Source: Chryseobacterium sp. Tr-659 (GTDB lineage: Bacteria > Bacteroidota > Bacteroidia > Flavobacteriales > Weeksellaceae). Taken from it: a DNA stretch of 64,000 nt. Shown piece after piece: positions 8,876 through 14,384 of this stretch. Where the stretch lies: contig NZ_VWWP01000006.1 of NCBI RefSeq assembly GCF_011752975.1, positions 62,001 to 126,000 on the forward strand, given 5' to 3'. The notes beneath the pieces were generated by a model. That model made no database searches, was not told where the DNA came from, and was given only the letters and a program-made list of their open reading frames with translations. The translations under genes and the position numbers were made by a program. The stretch's first letter is position 1, and each line of letters opens with the position of its first letter.

Positions 8876-9070
8876 TTGAGAAAATAAAAATTCAAACCTA
8901 AAAAAACTGCCCACTTATTAGCAGACAGCTGATTGATCCATATTTTTAATGATAGAAGTTCGTCAAATGAAGAAAAATTGGGAAGTTTAATAGATTAAAA
9001 AGCAGATTCATTTATTTGTAACAGTTTATCTGTTTCTTTAAGCTCTCAAACTCTCAAACGTTCTGACTTA

Positions 9071-9880
9071 TTAATCCCATCCCTTTACGGCTCCTCCTTT
9101 GAAAATTTCTTTTGCTTTCTTTTCCACTTCAGGAGATTGATAGGCTTTCACAAAGTTTTTAACCTTCTGGCTGTTTTTGTTATCCTGTCTCGCTACGACA
9201 ACATTCACGTAAGGAGAATCTTTATCTTCGATAAGAATACCTTGTTTTTCTGAATCTAAGCCGGCCTGAGCAGCAAAATTGTTATTGATGATCCCTACCA
9301 CAACATCTCTGTCATCCAGAACCCTTGGAATTTGTGCTCCTTCGATCTCCATAATCTTCAGATCTTTTGGGTTTTCAGTGATATCAGTTACTTTGGGTAG
9401 TAATCCAACACCATCTTTTAATTTCAAAAGACCACTTTTTTGCAGCAGTAATAAAGAACGTCCCCCATTAGTAGGGTCATTGGGAATAACAACTGTACTT
9501 CCATTCTGCAGCTGGCTGATGCTGCTGATCTTTTTTGAGTAAGCTACTATAGGGTACACAAAAGTATTTCCAACTACGGCAAGATTGTATCCTCTCTGCT
9601 TTGACTGTTCCGTTAAATAAGGAACATGTTGAAAAGCATTGGCATCAATATCTCCGTTGGTTAGTGCTTCATTAGGAACAACATAATCATTAAAAGGAAT
9701 AAGTTCCACTTCCAGATTATATTTGTCTTTTGCTACTTTTTTCGCTACTTCAGCAATTTCCTGTTCAGGTCCGTAAGTAATTCCTACCCGGATAAAATTC
9801 GGATCATCTTTTCTTCCGGAACATGCATTGAACAGTAATATTCCAGCAGCTAATAAACCAAAAATCTTTATTTTTTTCAT
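9071..9880 (-). CDS. metQ: Methionine ABC transporter substrate-binding lipoprotein
   Basis: Substrate-binding lipoprotein of the MetNIQ importer, which captures methionine in the periplasm. The signal peptide ends in a lipobox with Cys20 (FNAC). The 269-residue length and the NlpA/MetQ family signatures fit, including VGITYGPEQEIAEVAKKVAK near residue 31 and NGDIDANAFQHVPYL near 76. It is the last gene of the minus-strand eamA-metN-metI-metQ operon, with 160 bases separating it from metI; no terminator is visible in that gap. A weak hairpin with a T run near 8900-8925 could end the transcript. Regulation is expected through the leader at 12771-12957. Confidence 0.95.
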   Translation of the reverse strand: MKKIKIFGLLAAGILLFNACSGRKDDPNFIRVGITYGPEQEIAEVAKKVAKDKYNLEVELIPFNDYVVPNEALTNGDIDANAFQHVPYLTEQSKQRGYNLAVVGNTFVYPIVAYSKKISSISQLQNGSTVVIPNDPTNGGRSLLLLQKSGLLKLKDGVGLLPKVTDITENPKDLKIMEIEGAQIPRVLDDRDVVVGIINNNFAAQAGLDSEKQGILIEDKDSPYVNVVVARQDNKNSQKVKNFVKAYQSPEVEKKAKEIFKGGAVKGWD

Positions 9881-10040
9881 TCTATTTTTTATTTAAATGG
9901 GTTGTTAGGGTAAAGAAAACTGAGAGAGTAAGAGGCAAAAGTGTAGAAAGGTAAAATTGCTAAAAAGGACTTATTTCTACATTTTTTATTTCGAATTTCA
10001 AAACTCGCAACTCTCAAACCCTCCGAATCTCCAATCCGAA

Positions 10041-10697
10041 CTACCTGTGGTCAAAACTTTTTGATAATCTGTCTCCGGCAAACTGGATCATAAATACCAA
10101 CAGAACAAGCAGGATCAATACCGTGTTCATGATCACAATATCATAACCGATGTACCCATATTGGTATCCAACCTGACCTAATCCTCCGGCACCTACAGCT
10201 CCTCCCATTGCAGAGTATCCTACCAGAGTAATTAATGTAATGGTTGCATTATTAATCAACGAAGGAAGTGCTTCAGGAAGCAATACCTTTCTTATAATCT
10301 GTAACGGTGAAGCTCCCAATGCTCTTGCTGTTTCTATCAGTCCGTGAGGAACTTCAATAAGACTGTTTTCTACCAATCTTGCGATAAATGGTGCAGCTCC
10401 AACACTTAATGGAACCAATGCCGCGTTAACACCAATAGAAGTTCCTGCTAAAATTCTGGTAAAAGGAATCATCCATACGATAAGGATAATGAAAGGAATT
10501 GCCCGGAAAATATTAACCAAAATAGATAAAGCTCTGTGGTAAAAAGTATTTTCAAGAAGTTGTCCCTTTCTTGTTAAAAAAAGCATGATTCCTACCGGAA
10601 GTCCCAGGACAAATCCAAAAAATCCGGACATGAATGTCATATAAATTGTTTCCCAGGTTCCTTTTGCCAAAAGGGCAATTACCGTATCACTAAGCAT
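10041..10697 (-). CDS. metI: Methionine ABC transporter permease
   Basis: Inner-membrane permease of the MetNIQ methionine importer. The 218 residues hold about five membrane helices, and the binding-protein-dependent transport signature lies around ETARALGASPLQIIRKVLLP (about 141-160), the coupling helix that contacts MetN. The start codon lies inside the end of metN (8-base overlap), so the two are translationally coupled. No defect is seen. Confidence 0.96.
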   Translation of the reverse strand: MLSDTVIALLAKGTWETIYMTFMSGFFGFVLGLPVGIMLFLTRKGQLLENTFYHRALSILVNIFRAIPFIILIVWMIPFTRILAGTSIGVNAALVPLSVGAAPFIARLVENSLIEVPHGLIETARALGASPLQIIRKVLLPEALPSLINNATITLITLVGYSAMGGAVGAGGLGQVGYQYGYIGYDIVIMNTVLILLVLLVFMIQFAGDRLSKSFDHR

Positions 10698-11718
10698 ATC
10701 CTTTTACTGTGTTTTGAATTTTATTCTGGTTAAAATAATAGATTGCCTGCTGGTTTTCTTCCGCTTCTCCCTGAAGCTGCAACAGCAATTTTCCGAAATT
10801 AGAATTTCCGAAATATTCAACATCCGCTTTTAAAAGCTTATAAGGGATTTTATACTGACTATAAAGCGTTGAAAGAATTTGTTCAACACTGATGTTTTCG
10901 TTAAGTTCTATTTCGACCAGCGGGAATAAACCTTCTTTAGGCTCCTTTTGCAGTCTGTTACTGAGTTCCTGAGGCAGGGTCATGATGTCTGAATTTATAA
11001 ATTGCCGGATTACCGGGTGTTCTTTATCCGAAATAATTTCGCTTAAAGTTCCTTTTGTTAATAATTTTCCTTTGTCTATAACCGCTACATGGTTACAGAC
11101 CGCTTTAATAACTTCCATTTCGTGGGTGATCAAAAGAATAGTGATTCCCAGTCTTTGGTTGATGTCTCTTAAAAGCTGTAAGATGGATTGTGTTGTTGCA
11201 GGATCAAGTGCACTTGTGGCTTCATCACACAAAAGAAGATGAGGATCATTGGCCAGGGCTCTTGCAATGGCAACCCTTTGTTTTTGGCCTCCGGAAAGAC
11301 TTCTGGGGTAATCGTTAGCTTTATCTTCCAATCCTACGATTTTCAAAAGTTCATTAACCTTTCTGTTGATTTCGTCCTTACTGGTATGGTCCAGCTCCAA
11401 AGGAAGTGCTACATTGTCAAAAACGGTTCTTGAGGAAAGAAGGTTAAAATGCTGGAAGATCATTCCAATTTTTTTACGCTCTTCTGCCAGCTGTTTGGAG
11501 TTTAATTTTGTAAAATCCTTACCATTAATAATGATCTGGCCTTCATCCGGTCTTTCCAGCAGGTTTACAGTACGTATCAAAGTACTTTTTCCCGCACCGG
11601 AAAATCCGATTATCCCTACGATATCTCCTTTTTCTATATTGAGGCTCACCTTATCCAGGGCTTTAAAAGACTGTTTTTTCTGGTGAAATGTTTTTGATAT
11701 ATTTCTGATTTCTATCAT
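10690..11718 (-). CDS. metN: Methionine ABC transporter ATPase
   Basis: ATPase of the MetNIQ importer. The 342 residues include Walker A (GFSGAGKST, about 38-46), a Q-loop, the ABC signature LSGGQKQRVAIARAL (about 141-155), Walker B (LLLCDEATSALD) and an H-loop. The last 75 residues match the NIL domain, which binds methionine and inhibits the transporter when internal methionine is high in characterised MetN proteins. It overlaps metI by 8 bases and begins 19 bases after the stop of the eamA gene, so the DMT gene upstream belongs to the same transcript. Confidence 0.96.
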   Translation of the reverse strand: MIEIRNISKTFHQKKQSFKALDKVSLNIEKGDIVGIIGFSGAGKSTLIRTVNLLERPDEGQIIINGKDFTKLNSKQLAEERKKIGMIFQHFNLLSSRTVFDNVALPLELDHTSKDEINRKVNELLKIVGLEDKANDYPRSLSGGQKQRVAIARALANDPHLLLCDEATSALDPATTQSILQLLRDINQRLGITILLITHEMEVIKAVCNHVAVIDKGKLLTKGTLSEIISDKEHPVIRQFINSDIMTLPQELSNRLQKEPKEGLFPLVEIELNENISVEQILSTLYSQYKIPYKLLKADVEYFGNSNFGKLLLQLQGEAEENQQAIYYFNQNKIQNTVKGYA

Positions 11719-11737
11719 TCTGATGTTTTAATACTGT

Positions 11738-12736
11738 TTAAATAGGCTGATACCGCTTGCCTGCTCTGTTAAAAAATCTTCTCACTCTTCTTAATCTGAC
11801 CTTGGACCGTTTTGAAAGCTTGAAATACTTGGTGACATTCGTCAGCAATACTCCCAATAATATGACGGCTAAACCATAAAGCTGGCCTCCGTTAATGCTC
11901 TGGTTGGCAACAATCCAGCCTGCAATAACCGTTACAATAGGGTTGATGTAGGTATGGGTACTTACCAGTGCGGCAGGTTTTACAGACAGGAGCCAAATGT
12001 ACGACAAATAAGCGACTATCGATCCAAAGAATATCAAAAACAGAACACCCAGCCATGCTGATAATGGGATTGATGAAACCGAAAAATCAGTCCATTCTTT
12101 TCTGAAAAAAGCGATCAGAAAAGAAGCTAATCCTGCTACTATAAGCTGTTGTGCAATATTCATAAAAGTAGATTGAGACGCAGGATTTTTCTTTGAATAT
12201 AAAGATCCGAGAACCCATGCTACAGAACTTAATCCCAATACTGCAAATGCGGTGATCCGTAGATTTCCATTAAGTGCGGCATGGGCTGCATGCGAATTGG
12301 CACTTCCTTTTAAGAATAAAATCAATCCTGCAAAACCAATCATTAATCCGATTGGGATGAATTTATCCGAAAAATAATACTTCCAGTTCTTTCTGTCGAT
12401 TGCAATAAACCAGAACGGACCGGTAGCTATTGAGATTGCTGCTTCAGAAGCTGTCACATATTGTTCTCCCCAGGCAACTAATCCGGTTCCTCCGGTAAGA
12501 ATGAGAATACCTGTAATTGCATTTTTCTTCCAGTTGATCAACGAGTTTGCTTTTTCTCCTTTTGAAAGAAGATAACCGATCATCAGAATTCCTGCCACCA
12601 GAAATCTTAACCCGGAAAGTATGAACGGTGGAAACCCTTTCAAGCCAAATGAAATAGCTAAAAAGGTGACTCCCCATATCACATAAATATTGGTAAATGC
12701 CAACGGTACCAACCATTTGTGTTTAGAATTGCTCAT
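11738..12736 (-). CDS. EamA/DMT-family membrane transporter heading the met operon
   Basis: A 332-residue protein of the drug/metabolite transporter superfamily with ten predicted membrane helices in two EamA repeats (about 12-140 and 165-300). The ATG at 12736 was chosen; an upstream in-frame TTG at 12751 is less likely. DMT proteins move metabolites such as amino acids, sugars or nucleotides across the inner membrane. Being the first gene behind a Met-rich leader and only 19 bases from metN, it may handle methionine or a related compound such as S-adenosylmethionine, but this is inference from position; other EamA proteins export quite different solutes. Confidence 0.88.
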   Translation of the reverse strand: MSNSKHKWLVPLAFTNIYVIWGVTFLAISFGLKGFPPFILSGLRFLVAGILMIGYLLSKGEKANSLINWKKNAITGILILTGGTGLVAWGEQYVTASEAAISIATGPFWFIAIDRKNWKYYFSDKFIPIGLMIGFAGLILFLKGSANSHAAHAALNGNLRITAFAVLGLSSVAWVLGSLYSKKNPASQSTFMNIAQQLIVAGLASFLIAFFRKEWTDFSVSSIPLSAWLGVLFLIFFGSIVAYLSYIWLLSVKPAALVSTHTYINPIVTVIAGWIVANQSINGGQLYGLAVILLGVLLTNVTKYFKLSKRSKVRLRRVRRFFNRAGKRYQPI

Positions 12737-12770
12737 TTTGTATTTTTTCAATGTATTAATTATTAAAATG

Positions 12771-12799
12771 AAAAAGGCCCTACACGTGGTAGGGCCTTT
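12771..12799 (-). terminator. Leader terminator (attenuator hairpin) upstream of eamA-metNIQ
   Basis: On the minus strand an uninterrupted 11-bp stem (12789-12799 with 12773-12783) with a 5-base loop is followed by a T run, a textbook intrinsic terminator. It lies 35 bases before the first gene of the operon and 26 bases after the stop codon of a Met-rich leader ORF, the position expected for attenuation. The loop-proximal CUACCACG can instead pair with CGUGGUUAG, the last codons of the leader. Confidence 0.88.
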
Positions 12800-12824
12800 A
12801 GAAATATGTCATATAAAAGTAAGG

Positions 12825-12896
12825 CTAACCACGGGATTCTTGATGTACAGGCATACAGTTGTACATAATCATTGTTTTAATGATATGTTTATCCAT
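12825..12896 (-). CDS. Putative Met-rich leader peptide of the methionine transport operon
   Basis: A 23-codon ORF with Met at positions 1, 9, 11 and 15 and a C-terminal half reading MYNCMPVHQESRG. An AAGGA-like ribosome-binding sequence sits 7 bases before the start. An in-frame ATG 27 bases upstream (12923), itself preceded by AGGA, would add nine residues. The ORF lies between a TAnnTTTG promoter and the 12771-12799 terminator in front of a methionine transporter operon. By analogy with amino-acid leader peptides, slow translation of the Met codons would favour the antiterminator and turn the operon on. That role is inferred; only the ORF, codons and hairpin are seen directly. Confidence 0.7.
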   Translation of the reverse strand: MDKHIIKTMIMYNCMPVHQESRG

Positions 12897-12949
12897 TGTA
12901 TTATCCTTAAAATTTGGTTTCATTTTTTTTGTTTTCCTAAATTCTGCTG

Positions 12950-12957
12950 CAAATATA
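12950..12957 (-). promoter_or_regulatory. -7 element of the met operon leader promoter
   Basis: TATATTTG on the minus strand is a perfect TAnnTTTG. It places the transcript start near 12944, about 20 bases before the upstream leader ATG. No exact TTTG -33 element is visible at the usual distance. The rest of the gap (12958-13136) is AT-rich and shows nothing else. Confidence 0.6.
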
Positions 12958-13136
12958 GAATATATATTTTTATTAGTCCATTAAAATAATAGACTTTTTA
13001 ATATTTTTTTTTAACTAATGTTATAAATGTTTGTAAATAAGATTGTTGTGTTTGTTTTAAATTTTATTAATATTTAGAAATAGTAGAGATTTTAAAGATT
13101 AACATAATTTATGATTAGACATTGATGATTAGTCAT

Positions 13137-13144
13137 TAATTTTG
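13137..13144 (+). promoter_or_regulatory. Possible -7 element of the SDR-MarR operon
   Basis: TAATTTTG matches TAnnTTTG and lies 36 bases before the SDR start codon. No well-spaced -33 element is seen, so the call is tentative. The upstream ATTGATGATTAGTCATTAAT contains imperfect symmetry that could be a MarR site. Confidence 0.4.
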
Positions 13145-13179
13145 TTTGATCAAATTATATTAATTTAAAAACAATTTTT

Positions 13180-13932
13180 ATGAAACGTTTTAAAAACAAA
13201 GTAGCATTCATTACAGGAGGAAACTCCGGAATTGGTAAAGCGGTTGCTATACTGATGGCAAGAGAAGGAGCAAAAATTGTAATTGCGGATCTTAAAGAAA
13301 ATAAAGAAACACTGGAAGAAGTTTTAAAGGAGGGAACAGATGCCAGGTTCATAACATGTGATGTTTCAAAAGCAGAAGACGTTGAAAAGGCTGTATATGA
13401 AACCGTAGAAATATTCGGAAGTCTTGATATAGCTGTGAATAATGCAGGTATTGTAGATGCTTCTCCGATTCATGAGAAATCAATAGAAGAATGGCAGAGG
13501 GTGATCAATATTAACTTAAGTGGTGTGTTTTATGGAATGAAATATCAGATAGCTCAGATGAGAAAGCAGGGAACAGGAGGAGCAATAGTGAATATGGGAT
13601 CTATTATGAGCCAGGTAGCAGAATTCGGGATTGCATCGTATGCTTCTTCAAAACATGGTCTGGTAGGGCTTACAAAAGTAGCGGCTTTAGAGAATGGAAC
13701 AGATAACATTCGTGTTAATGCAATAGGTCCGGGTTACATAGAAACCCCATTATTAATGGATAATGCAGCACAAAGTGCAGAGTACAGATCTTATATGGAA
13801 TCCAAGCATGCGATGAAAAGATTAGGAAAACCGGAAGAAATTGCAAAAGCTGTCTTATTTTTGGCTTCTGAAGATGCAAGTTTCTGTACAGGAGCTTATC
13901 TGCCGGTAGATGGCGGTTATCTGATTCAGTAA
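13180..13932 (+). CDS. Short-chain dehydrogenase/reductase
   Basis: A 250-residue NAD(P)-dependent oxidoreductase of the classical SDR family. The cofactor motif GGNSGIGKA lies at about residues 12-20, NNAG near 87-90, the catalytic Ser near 141 and the YxxxK pair at Tyr154/Lys158. An acidic residue after the second strand (IADL) points to NAD(H) preference. The C-terminal GAYLPVDGGYL is standard for SDRs annotated as glucose 1-dehydrogenase-like or 3-oxoacyl reductase-like. The MarR regulator follows 14 bases downstream, so the pair is an operon and the enzyme probably acts on a small molecule sensed by that regulator. The substrate is unknown. Confidence 0.93.
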   Translation: MKRFKNKVAFITGGNSGIGKAVAILMAREGAKIVIADLKENKETLEEVLKEGTDARFITCDVSKAEDVEKAVYETVEIFGSLDIAVNNAGIVDASPIHEKSIEEWQRVININLSGVFYGMKYQIAQMRKQGTGGAIVNMGSIMSQVAEFGIASYASSKHGLVGLTKVAALENGTDNIRVNAIGPGYIETPLLMDNAAQSAEYRSYMESKHAMKRLGKPEEIAKAVLFLASEDASFCTGAYLPVDGGYLIQ

Positions 13933-13946
13933 TTAAATAATAAAGA

Positions 13947-14384
13947 ATGAAAAAAATAAAAGCGGAAGAGCTTCCACTTCGAAGACAGCTGGGCATTGCA
14001 ATGGTAGAAACCTATAACAATGTTTATGACAGATCTCAGGAGTTTTTTGCAACTTATGGGCTTACTTCCCAGCAATACAATGTACTCTCTATTCTGTATG
14101 ATGCAGGAAAGCCGTTGTCAACTTCGGCTATCCTGAAAAAAATGCTGGAGAAAAATGCCGGAGTTTCCAGATTGGTAGACCGTCTGATCATTAAAGAACT
14201 TGTTGAAAAAAATGTAAATGAAGGGGACAAACGTCTTATAGATGTAAAGCTTACTGATAAAGGGGAAACCTTATATAAAACAGTTACTGAAGATCTGTCC
14301 GGAGTAGATGATGTCTACAGAGCGCTTACAGACGAAGAAGTGGAAGTATTGATCCGCCTTTTTGAAAAGATGAGAAAAGTATAA
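13947..14384 (+). CDS. MarR-family transcriptional regulator
   Basis: A 145-residue winged-helix DNA-binding protein of the MarR family. The recognition region lies around residues 50-90 (LTSQQYNVLSILYDAG through AGVSRLVDRLIIKELVE), with the wing at NEGDKRLIDVKLTDKG. It shares a transcript with the SDR gene 14 bases upstream and ends at a terminator. MarR proteins usually repress their own operon until a phenolic or other small ligand binds; that is the expected role here, but no operator was proven. Confidence 0.93.
   Translation: MKKIKAEELPLRRQLGIAMVETYNNVYDRSQEFFATYGLTSQQYNVLSILYDAGKPLSTSAILKKMLEKNAGVSRLVDRLIIKELVEKNVNEGDKRLIDVKLTDKGETLYKTVTEDLSGVDDVYRALTDEEVEVLIRLFEKMRKV

Follow-up and report, generated by a model that had tools for sequence, protein, structure and literature searches.

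The analysed window is a 64,000-nucleotide stretch of the genome of Chryseobacterium sp. Tr-659 (assembly GCF_011752975.1, contig NZ_VWWP01000006.1, positions 62,001 to 126,000), and it carried on the minus strand a methionine-import operon preceded by a leader of about 175 nt, most of which was taken up by a short ORF. A promoter dyad, the -7 box TATATTTG, a short A-rich 5′ leader, the ORF, a conserved linker, an intrinsic terminator, eamA, metN, metI, and metQ followed one another in that order. The preliminary description of the locus had placed a promoter, a short Met-containing ORF, a terminator, and eamA–metN–metI–metQ in series, and direct reading of the strand gave the same order, including the TAnnTTTG promoter it had named (TATATTTG at 12957-12950) and its perfect 11-bp terminator (12799-12773). 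The features were as follows (the 104 unique leaders are defined below):

12975..12995 (C32:74975-74995), minus strand: promoter dyad AGTCTATTATTTTAATGGACT, consensus AGTCTAC-N7-GTRGACT, a putative operator near -33
12950..12957, minus strand: Bacteroidota-type -7 promoter box TATATTTG, with TAnnT[TC]TG at that distance in 104/104 leaders
12825..12923, minus strand: leader peptide ORF of 32 codons plus TAG, MKPNFKDNTMDKHIIKTMIMYNCMPVHQESRG (direct reading, profile search, and in-frame constraint)
12849..12872, minus strand: control block, codons 18-25, M I M Y N C M P, consensus MMMxxCMP (3-5 Met codons in 104/104 motif-selected leaders)
12821..12833, minus strand: antiterminator 5′ arm CGUGGUUAGCCUU, comprising the last two codons, the stop, and 4 nt (duplex energies and folds)
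12800..12820, minus strand: conserved linker ACTTTTATATGACATATTTCT (leader sequences and consensus)
12785..12798, minus strand: antiterminator 3′ arm AAGGCCCUACCACG, equal to the terminator 5′ arm plus loop (duplex energies)
12773..12799, minus strand: intrinsic terminator with 11-bp stem, 5-nt loop, and T-rich tail (-17.4 kcal/mol)
11738..12727, minus strand: eamA, EamA-family transporter (Pfam EamA; a generic transporter)
10690..11718, minus strand: metN, methionine ABC transporter ATPase (NCBIfam best hit, below cut-off)
10041..10697, minus strand: metI, permease (NCBIfam)
9071..9880, minus strand: metQ, substrate-binding lipoprotein (NCBIfam)

MetI and MetQ scored above their NCBIfam cut-offs, and MetN had its best NCBIfam hit at a score of 447.5, below the cut-off of 499.7. 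The plasmid records searched with the site gave no match.

The leader ORF started with ATG at 12923 and stopped with TAG at 12827-12825, giving the peptide MKPNFKDNTMDKHIIKTMIMYNCMPVHQESRG* with Met at codons 1, 10, 18, 20, and 24 in the 32-codon numbering. A short Met-rich ORF had been recognised before, and it does exist, but the start then assigned to it was the internal Met10, and the true ATG lay 27 nt upstream: the Met1 position was ATG in 104/104 unique leaders, and the position of Met10 was Met in just 34/104. A chance scan for ORFs of 12-45 aa with at least three Met in eight codons and ending near a strong terminator gave one match in the window, the metNIQ leader itself; the same scan in 20 block-shuffled windows gave none, a control that flatters the scan because the shuffled windows averaged 2.15 hairpins against 20 in the real one.

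A profile of the leader peptide was searched against 320 genomes of the family, 173 of them from the same genus. Matches at E <= 1 were obtained in 227/320 genomes, the strong ones lying in Chryseobacterium; among the matches listed, at least about 150, each from the same genus, ran down to E 9.2e-7, and outside the genus the profile found nothing convincing (best E 0.0187). The leader was present in 118/119 Chryseobacterium loci read, 110 by motif and eight as variants by eye, and the match at the remaining locus (L028) was attributed to chance and dropped. Five places were taken twice among the 119 loci, and removal of six repeats from the 110 motif fits left 104 unique leaders, to which all statistics on block, fold, dyad, and codon usage refer, the eight variants standing outside them. 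The gene downstream of the leader was read in 29 loci, being eamA in 21 and metN directly in 8 (eamA was shortened in L003, and metN lay outside the fetched stretch in L023). Twelve same-genus genomes gave either no leader match (4) or only one at E > 0.02 (8), and these were checked for metN: 8/12 had no metN at E <= 1e-90, and the remaining four had both metN and leader, the latter degenerate in one (G181). In that genome, the leader (L229, near a contig end) looked degenerate, with few Met codons and a broken T run (GGGCCATTTTTG), and metN was intact. Scanning named genomes for the pattern gave 78 stretches, of which 68 came from Chryseobacterium, 2 from 'Weeksellaceae bacterium', and 8 from other groups; these last eight (Omnitrophota 3, Doudnabacteria, Stercoripulliclostridium, Ruminococcus, Firmicutes, and Gammaproteobacteria) were taken as chance matches.

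The 104 ORFs were 31-34 aa long, and their 8-codon block (-6 to +1 around Cys) held 3-5 Met codons in every one of these motif-selected leaders, compared to a Met share of 2.2% in window genes. Relative to Cys, Met occupied -5, -4, -3, and +1 in 98, 103, 70, and 103 of 104; the motif itself required Met within five residues ahead of C-[MVI]-P, and the fixity of the block is thus partly due to selection of the leaders. Cys, Met, and Pro of CMP were nearly fixed, and the residues next to the stop were variable; from P to the stop there were seven codons in 101/104 leaders and eight in 3/104. Departures from CMP occurred in otherwise intact leaders (CWMP, CMH, CSMP, CTP, CVS, CAR, CSMS, and CMS), with the Met run retained each time. 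A second Cys stood immediately ahead of the CMP Cys in 49/104, Cys making up 0.48% of residues in window genes. Raw pN/pS, computed from 85 equal-length ORFs in pairs no more than 25% divergent, was 0.51 in frame versus 1.11 and 0.88 out of frame (these two from stop-free columns only), which points to a modest in-frame constraint on the ORF in the correct frame. Codon choice in the block was tighter than in window genes: (i) Pro was CCT in 103/104 versus 47%; (ii) the CMP Cys was TGT in 99/104 versus 64%; (iii) the Cys preceding it was TGC in 47/49 versus 36%; and (iv) Ile at -8 was ATC in 87/96 versus 28%. Classical attenuation offers no account of this fixed codon choice; the fixed codons and the conserved linker may together mark a further RNA-level element, and shared ancestry may explain part of their constancy.

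Between ORF and genes, terminator hairpins of -9.2 to -18.3 kcal/mol were found in 104/104 leaders. The hairpin of the window, with its perfect 11-bp stem, was the longest of eight terminator-like sites in 9000-14000 (3.8 +/- 1.8 in shuffles), and the leader folded more stably than its shuffles (z -2.89). The preliminary description had proposed that the end of the ORF pairs with the terminator over 8 bp; the pairing is real, but that length was too short, the helix consisting of 11 pairs (CGUGGU..GCCUU with AAGGC..ACCACG, -16.3 kcal/mol). Consensus methods gave little here: RNAalifold on the whole leader alignment returned the terminator only, the consensus fold without the terminator 3′ arm contained a single GCCU:AGGC helix, and column-wise mutual information ranked the terminator pair first and then many non-structural pairs. 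Consensus folding misses the antiterminator, we think, as a result of register shifts between species. Since these two approaches were uninformative, duplex energies with shuffled partners were used instead. Native antiterminator duplexes averaged -11.71 kcal/mol versus -10.86 kcal/mol for shuffled partners (sd 0.13), and 0/5000 shuffles were as good as the native set (64 unique pairs, in a test that takes no account of kinship). Many native pairs ranked mid-range because the helix hardly varies; several, including L024, L047, L100, L101, and L112, fell slightly short of the median partner in strength, and the pair of L097 ranked last (33 of 33) because the arm definition truncated it.

Paired changes that kept the helix were clearest in L107 (GGAGU/ACUCC), L142 (UGCGGA/UCUGCA), L145 (UGUAGA/UCUACA), and L115 (CAUGGU/ACCAUG), and the leaders ending GD* (L109, L117, L123, and L135) had GUGGU one codon earlier with the helix retained. 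When the terminator 3′ arm was removed, 82/104 minimum-energy folds contained the antiterminator, and in 19/104 the ORF body occupied the terminator arm instead. The consensus fold contained no conserved protector or pause hairpin (1:2), small hairpins over the Met codons appearing in some single folds; an untranslated leader might therefore read through by default. An alternative helix, GUAUGCCU:AGGCyyUAC, which had energies of -6.6 and -7.4 kcal/mol in two examples, was rejected: no covariation was noticed in it, and visual inspection of the sister-genus leaders showed no obvious counterpart.

In that sister genus (g28), metN was found in 4/6 genomes (about 78% identical), and all four carried a leader, located through metN and not through the Chryseobacterium leader profile. 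The peptides were MNKTIIRYNNKSTMIMCLCMAMPCPVVSGD, or MGRNIIRKSNCKSKKVTIIMCYQMAMPFSIVSGD and near copies, with a block of IIMC or MIMC..MAMP that contained one or two Cys codons and was followed by seven codons to the stop. Three of their antiterminators were folded at -13.7 to -14.8 kcal/mol with sequences unlike those of Chryseobacterium; those of L235 and L231 differed by an A-U/G-C exchange, and swapped partners were weaker (-13.0 and -11.8). The alignment of the leader across relatives that the preliminary description had proposed thus showed the ORF frame and Met codons kept, and the alternative pairing kept with compensating changes, in the genus and in its sister genus. Among 22 sampled genomes of other genera, four (including G223 of g28) had a metN match at E <= 1e-90, and no recognisable Met leader was found in the 420 nt upstream of metN in the three genomes of g30 and g22 (51-57% identity). 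Upstream of metN in g30, L232 and L233 contained a terminator-like hairpin and short ORFs (MAVKFCFVTIDFSKAI and MLEFVCCIRLI, the second by eye) in which Cys codons took the place of Met codons; these are possibly leaders of a cysteine type.

In 104/104 leaders, the promoter dyad lay 16-17 nt ahead of the -7 box, with a 7-nt spacer and a score of 10 or more out of 14, and a score of 10 was reached in 8/104 shuffled regions. Such a conserved promoter element probably means that a DNA-binding protein adds control of initiation. Genome-wide, the relaxed pattern had four exact places and three with one mismatch, the metNIQ copy being among the latter; at two or fewer mismatches, there were 39 forward places versus 97 for the reversed-pattern control, and the first pattern used gave 5 and 4 versus 4 and 4 for its reversed control. 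A dyad regulon deduced from counts was accordingly rejected, the numbers not exceeding the control, and only the places with no or one mismatch (four and three), together with their positions, support such a regulon. Exact copies preceded TonB-receptor genes at L071 and L072 (profile-tested) and L068 (by eye), and the exact copy L069 adjoined a peroxiredoxin gene. An Rrf2-family gene (L084, G000:C31, 2682-3134) lay beside a 2-mismatch dyad copy and a TauE/SafE-like gene; we infer from this placement that its product is a candidate reader of the dyad, and the dyad-binding protein is possibly a member of the Rrf2 family.

SAM-I riboswitches (RF00162), which sense SAM through an aptamer, control methionine-related genes in other bacteria. 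The preliminary description had expected SAM riboswitches in this group and had seen none at the site. Indeed, a search of the whole window against Rfam gave nothing above a family cut-off; at the site, the five weak matches were to unrelated RNAs and fell far below their cut-offs, no aptamer model of the SAM riboswitch classes of Rfam 15 matched the metNIQ leader, and no match to the Rfam T-box model was listed there. Three other loci of the genome did have SAM-I riboswitches. At L146 (G000:C29:15616), SAM-I was followed on the same strand by frames resembling MetX and aspartokinase/homoserine dehydrogenase (fragmentary, and below NCBIfam cut-offs); at L147 (C35:85065), it stood before a TonB-receptor gene as judged by eye; and at L148, it stood before a TonB-receptor gene tested as L071. 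The L148/L071 locus (G000:C29:178720-178871, minus strand) contained in series a dyad copy AGTCTAC-N7-GTAGACT, the riboswitch, and a SusC-like TonB receptor.

These parts are best read as a methionine-keyed transcription attenuator that works through the ribosome in the manner of the trp/his/leu attenuators, a reading we consider very probably correct on the comparative evidence; the methionine dependence, translation, stalling, and direction of response are what we infer from the observed parts and their conservation. Transcription would start near 12943, judged from the -7 box, and a ribosome would translate the leader ORF on the nascent RNA. When Met is plentiful, the leading ribosome would arrive at the stop and mask the antiterminator arm that straddles it; with the arm masked, the terminator would fold, and transcription would end ahead of eamA–metNIQ. 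Under a shortage of charged Met-tRNA, the ribosome would stall in the MMM..CM block and leave the arm free to pair with the terminator arm, so that RNA polymerase would read into the importer genes. In the window, the antiterminator arm began 21 nt past the first base of the last Met codon, which falls beyond the usual footprint of a stalled ribosome; by geometry alone, the arm would therefore be free during a stall.

The Cys codons of the block may add a response to cysteine. The attenuator would then be a sulphur-amino-acid sensor with Met and Cys as control codons, import opening upon shortage of either charged tRNA. The doubled Cys ahead of CMP in nearly half of the leaders, against the rarity of Cys in window genes, and the Cys codons of the sister-genus block argue for this, as does the CMCRRMCAF ending of the Streptomyces metL leader, as given in the accessible part of PMC8079986; but the fixity of the CMP Cys in the 104 leaders follows from a motif that required it, this Cys is replaced by S or W in L087, L090, L115, L131, and L250 though the neighbouring Cys stays, codon fixity hints at selection on RNA rather than tRNA, and the downstream genes serve Met import only. 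We regard this extension of the attenuator as possible yet doubtful. A nascent-peptide arrest resembling TnaC or SecM, in which the MMMxxCMP peptide would stall its own ribosome in response to a small molecule, for example SAM or methionine, with the place of the stall deciding between terminator and antiterminator, would fit the striking conservation of Cys, Met, and Pro and the constant distance from P to the stop, which recurs as MP plus seven codons in the sister genus. Yet CMP is not strictly required, given the departures listed above in which the Met run stays, the last seven residues vary freely, unlike those of a stop-codon arrest peptide, and if a ligand stalled the ribosome at the Pro codon, the antiterminator would remain free and import would be turned on under plentiful ligand; such an arrest is quite unlikely.

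Were the terminator constitutive and the peptide a small protein with a function of its own, control would lie with the promoter dyad only; the dyad does occur in all 104 promoters, and small proteins can have functions, but compensating changes maintain the alternative helix, the peptide varies outside the Met/Cys block, and terminator and Met leader reappear with diverged sequence in the sister genus, which together make this reading very unlikely. That a SAM riboswitch, a T-box, or another ligand-binding RNA drives the terminator, the ORF being incidental, is scarcely credible: the genome does use SAM-I riboswitches at three other loci, but the Rfam search left nothing over cut-off in the window and only unrelated weak matches at the site, and a leader of this length, mostly ORF, conserves codons and two competing helices. 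Returning to the methionine attenuator, a wider construction may be offered tentatively: a two-layer sulphur-amino-acid switch in Chryseobacterium and its sister genus, in which the dyad might be read by an Rrf2/CymR-like regulator and the attenuator might then sense charged Met- and Cys-tRNA; on present evidence, this composite is possible but less likely than not.

The most familiar regulators of methionine genes are SAM riboswitches, T-boxes, and repressors. The trp/his/leu attenuators of Proteobacteria combine control codons, a stop-proximal antiterminator arm, and an intrinsic terminator, all of which the metNIQ leader shares; it differs from them in its Met codons, in having no clear 1:2 protector hairpin, and in its Bacteroidota promoter with the conserved dyad. 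The Campylobacter jejuni MetL leader ahead of metBA, for which tRNA-charging attenuation was proposed, likewise has a short ORF with three Met codons before methionine genes, its RNA ending just past the stop, but metBA serves biosynthesis, whereas the operon here serves import, and the phylum is another; the likeness drawn here is one of description, and the accessible part of that source mentions orthologues of MetL in no species other than C. jejuni, C. coli, and C. doylei (PMC3847290). Met and Cys codons are interleaved in the metL leader of Streptomyces lividans (CMCRRMCAF), which likewise precedes the transporter operon metNIQ; unlike the leader here, it has a leaderless start and no typical terminator in what the accessible part reports, and the likeness rests on reading of the peptide (PMC8079986). 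In Flavobacterium psychrophilum, leader-peptide attenuation was proposed before amino-acid biosynthesis operons; these are related bacteria and the same general mechanism, and the word methionine is absent from the main text, Table S7 aside (PMC9723704, as far as accessible). Possible leader sORFs were described in Bacteroides thetaiotaomicron (accessible part of PMC7366714). The main text of a broad attenuator survey contains no occurrence of Bacteroidetes, Flavobacteri-, or metN (PMC2965389), the accessible part of an Actinobacteria survey reports no conserved RNA structures ahead of methionine operons (PMC1262725), and those of PMC3890552 and PMC4833913 added no Met leader.

Within the literature covered, which included few subscription papers and no supplementary tables, no report describing either a metNIQ attenuator in Chryseobacterium or a Met leader in any member of the Bacteroidota was recognised. 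The preliminary description had considered leader attenuation by methionine undescribed for Flavobacteriia; none was found there, but as far as the sources were accessible, Met leaders had been proposed in other phyla (PMC3847290 and PMC8079986) and attenuation in general in a flavobacterium (PMC9723704). Met leader peptides are thus an already proposed kind of element, to which the Chryseobacterium metNIQ leader adds a new and well supported case. In their accessible parts, the reports of the earlier Met leaders proposed them from position and codons without comparative support for both competing structures (PMC3847290 and PMC8079986). In the present case, conservation throughout a large genus extends to the codons, the terminator, and the antiterminator, all of which recur in its sister genus built from different sequence, and the mechanism is therefore testable by ordinary reporters. 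The two-layer switch, if true, would operate alongside SAM-I riboswitches at other loci of the genome. A division of labour within one cell is suggested, with SAM-I before methionine-synthesis genes (MetX-like and aspartokinase-like) and translation sensing for import; methionine shortage at the ribosome is probably the signal on which the cell turns its import on.
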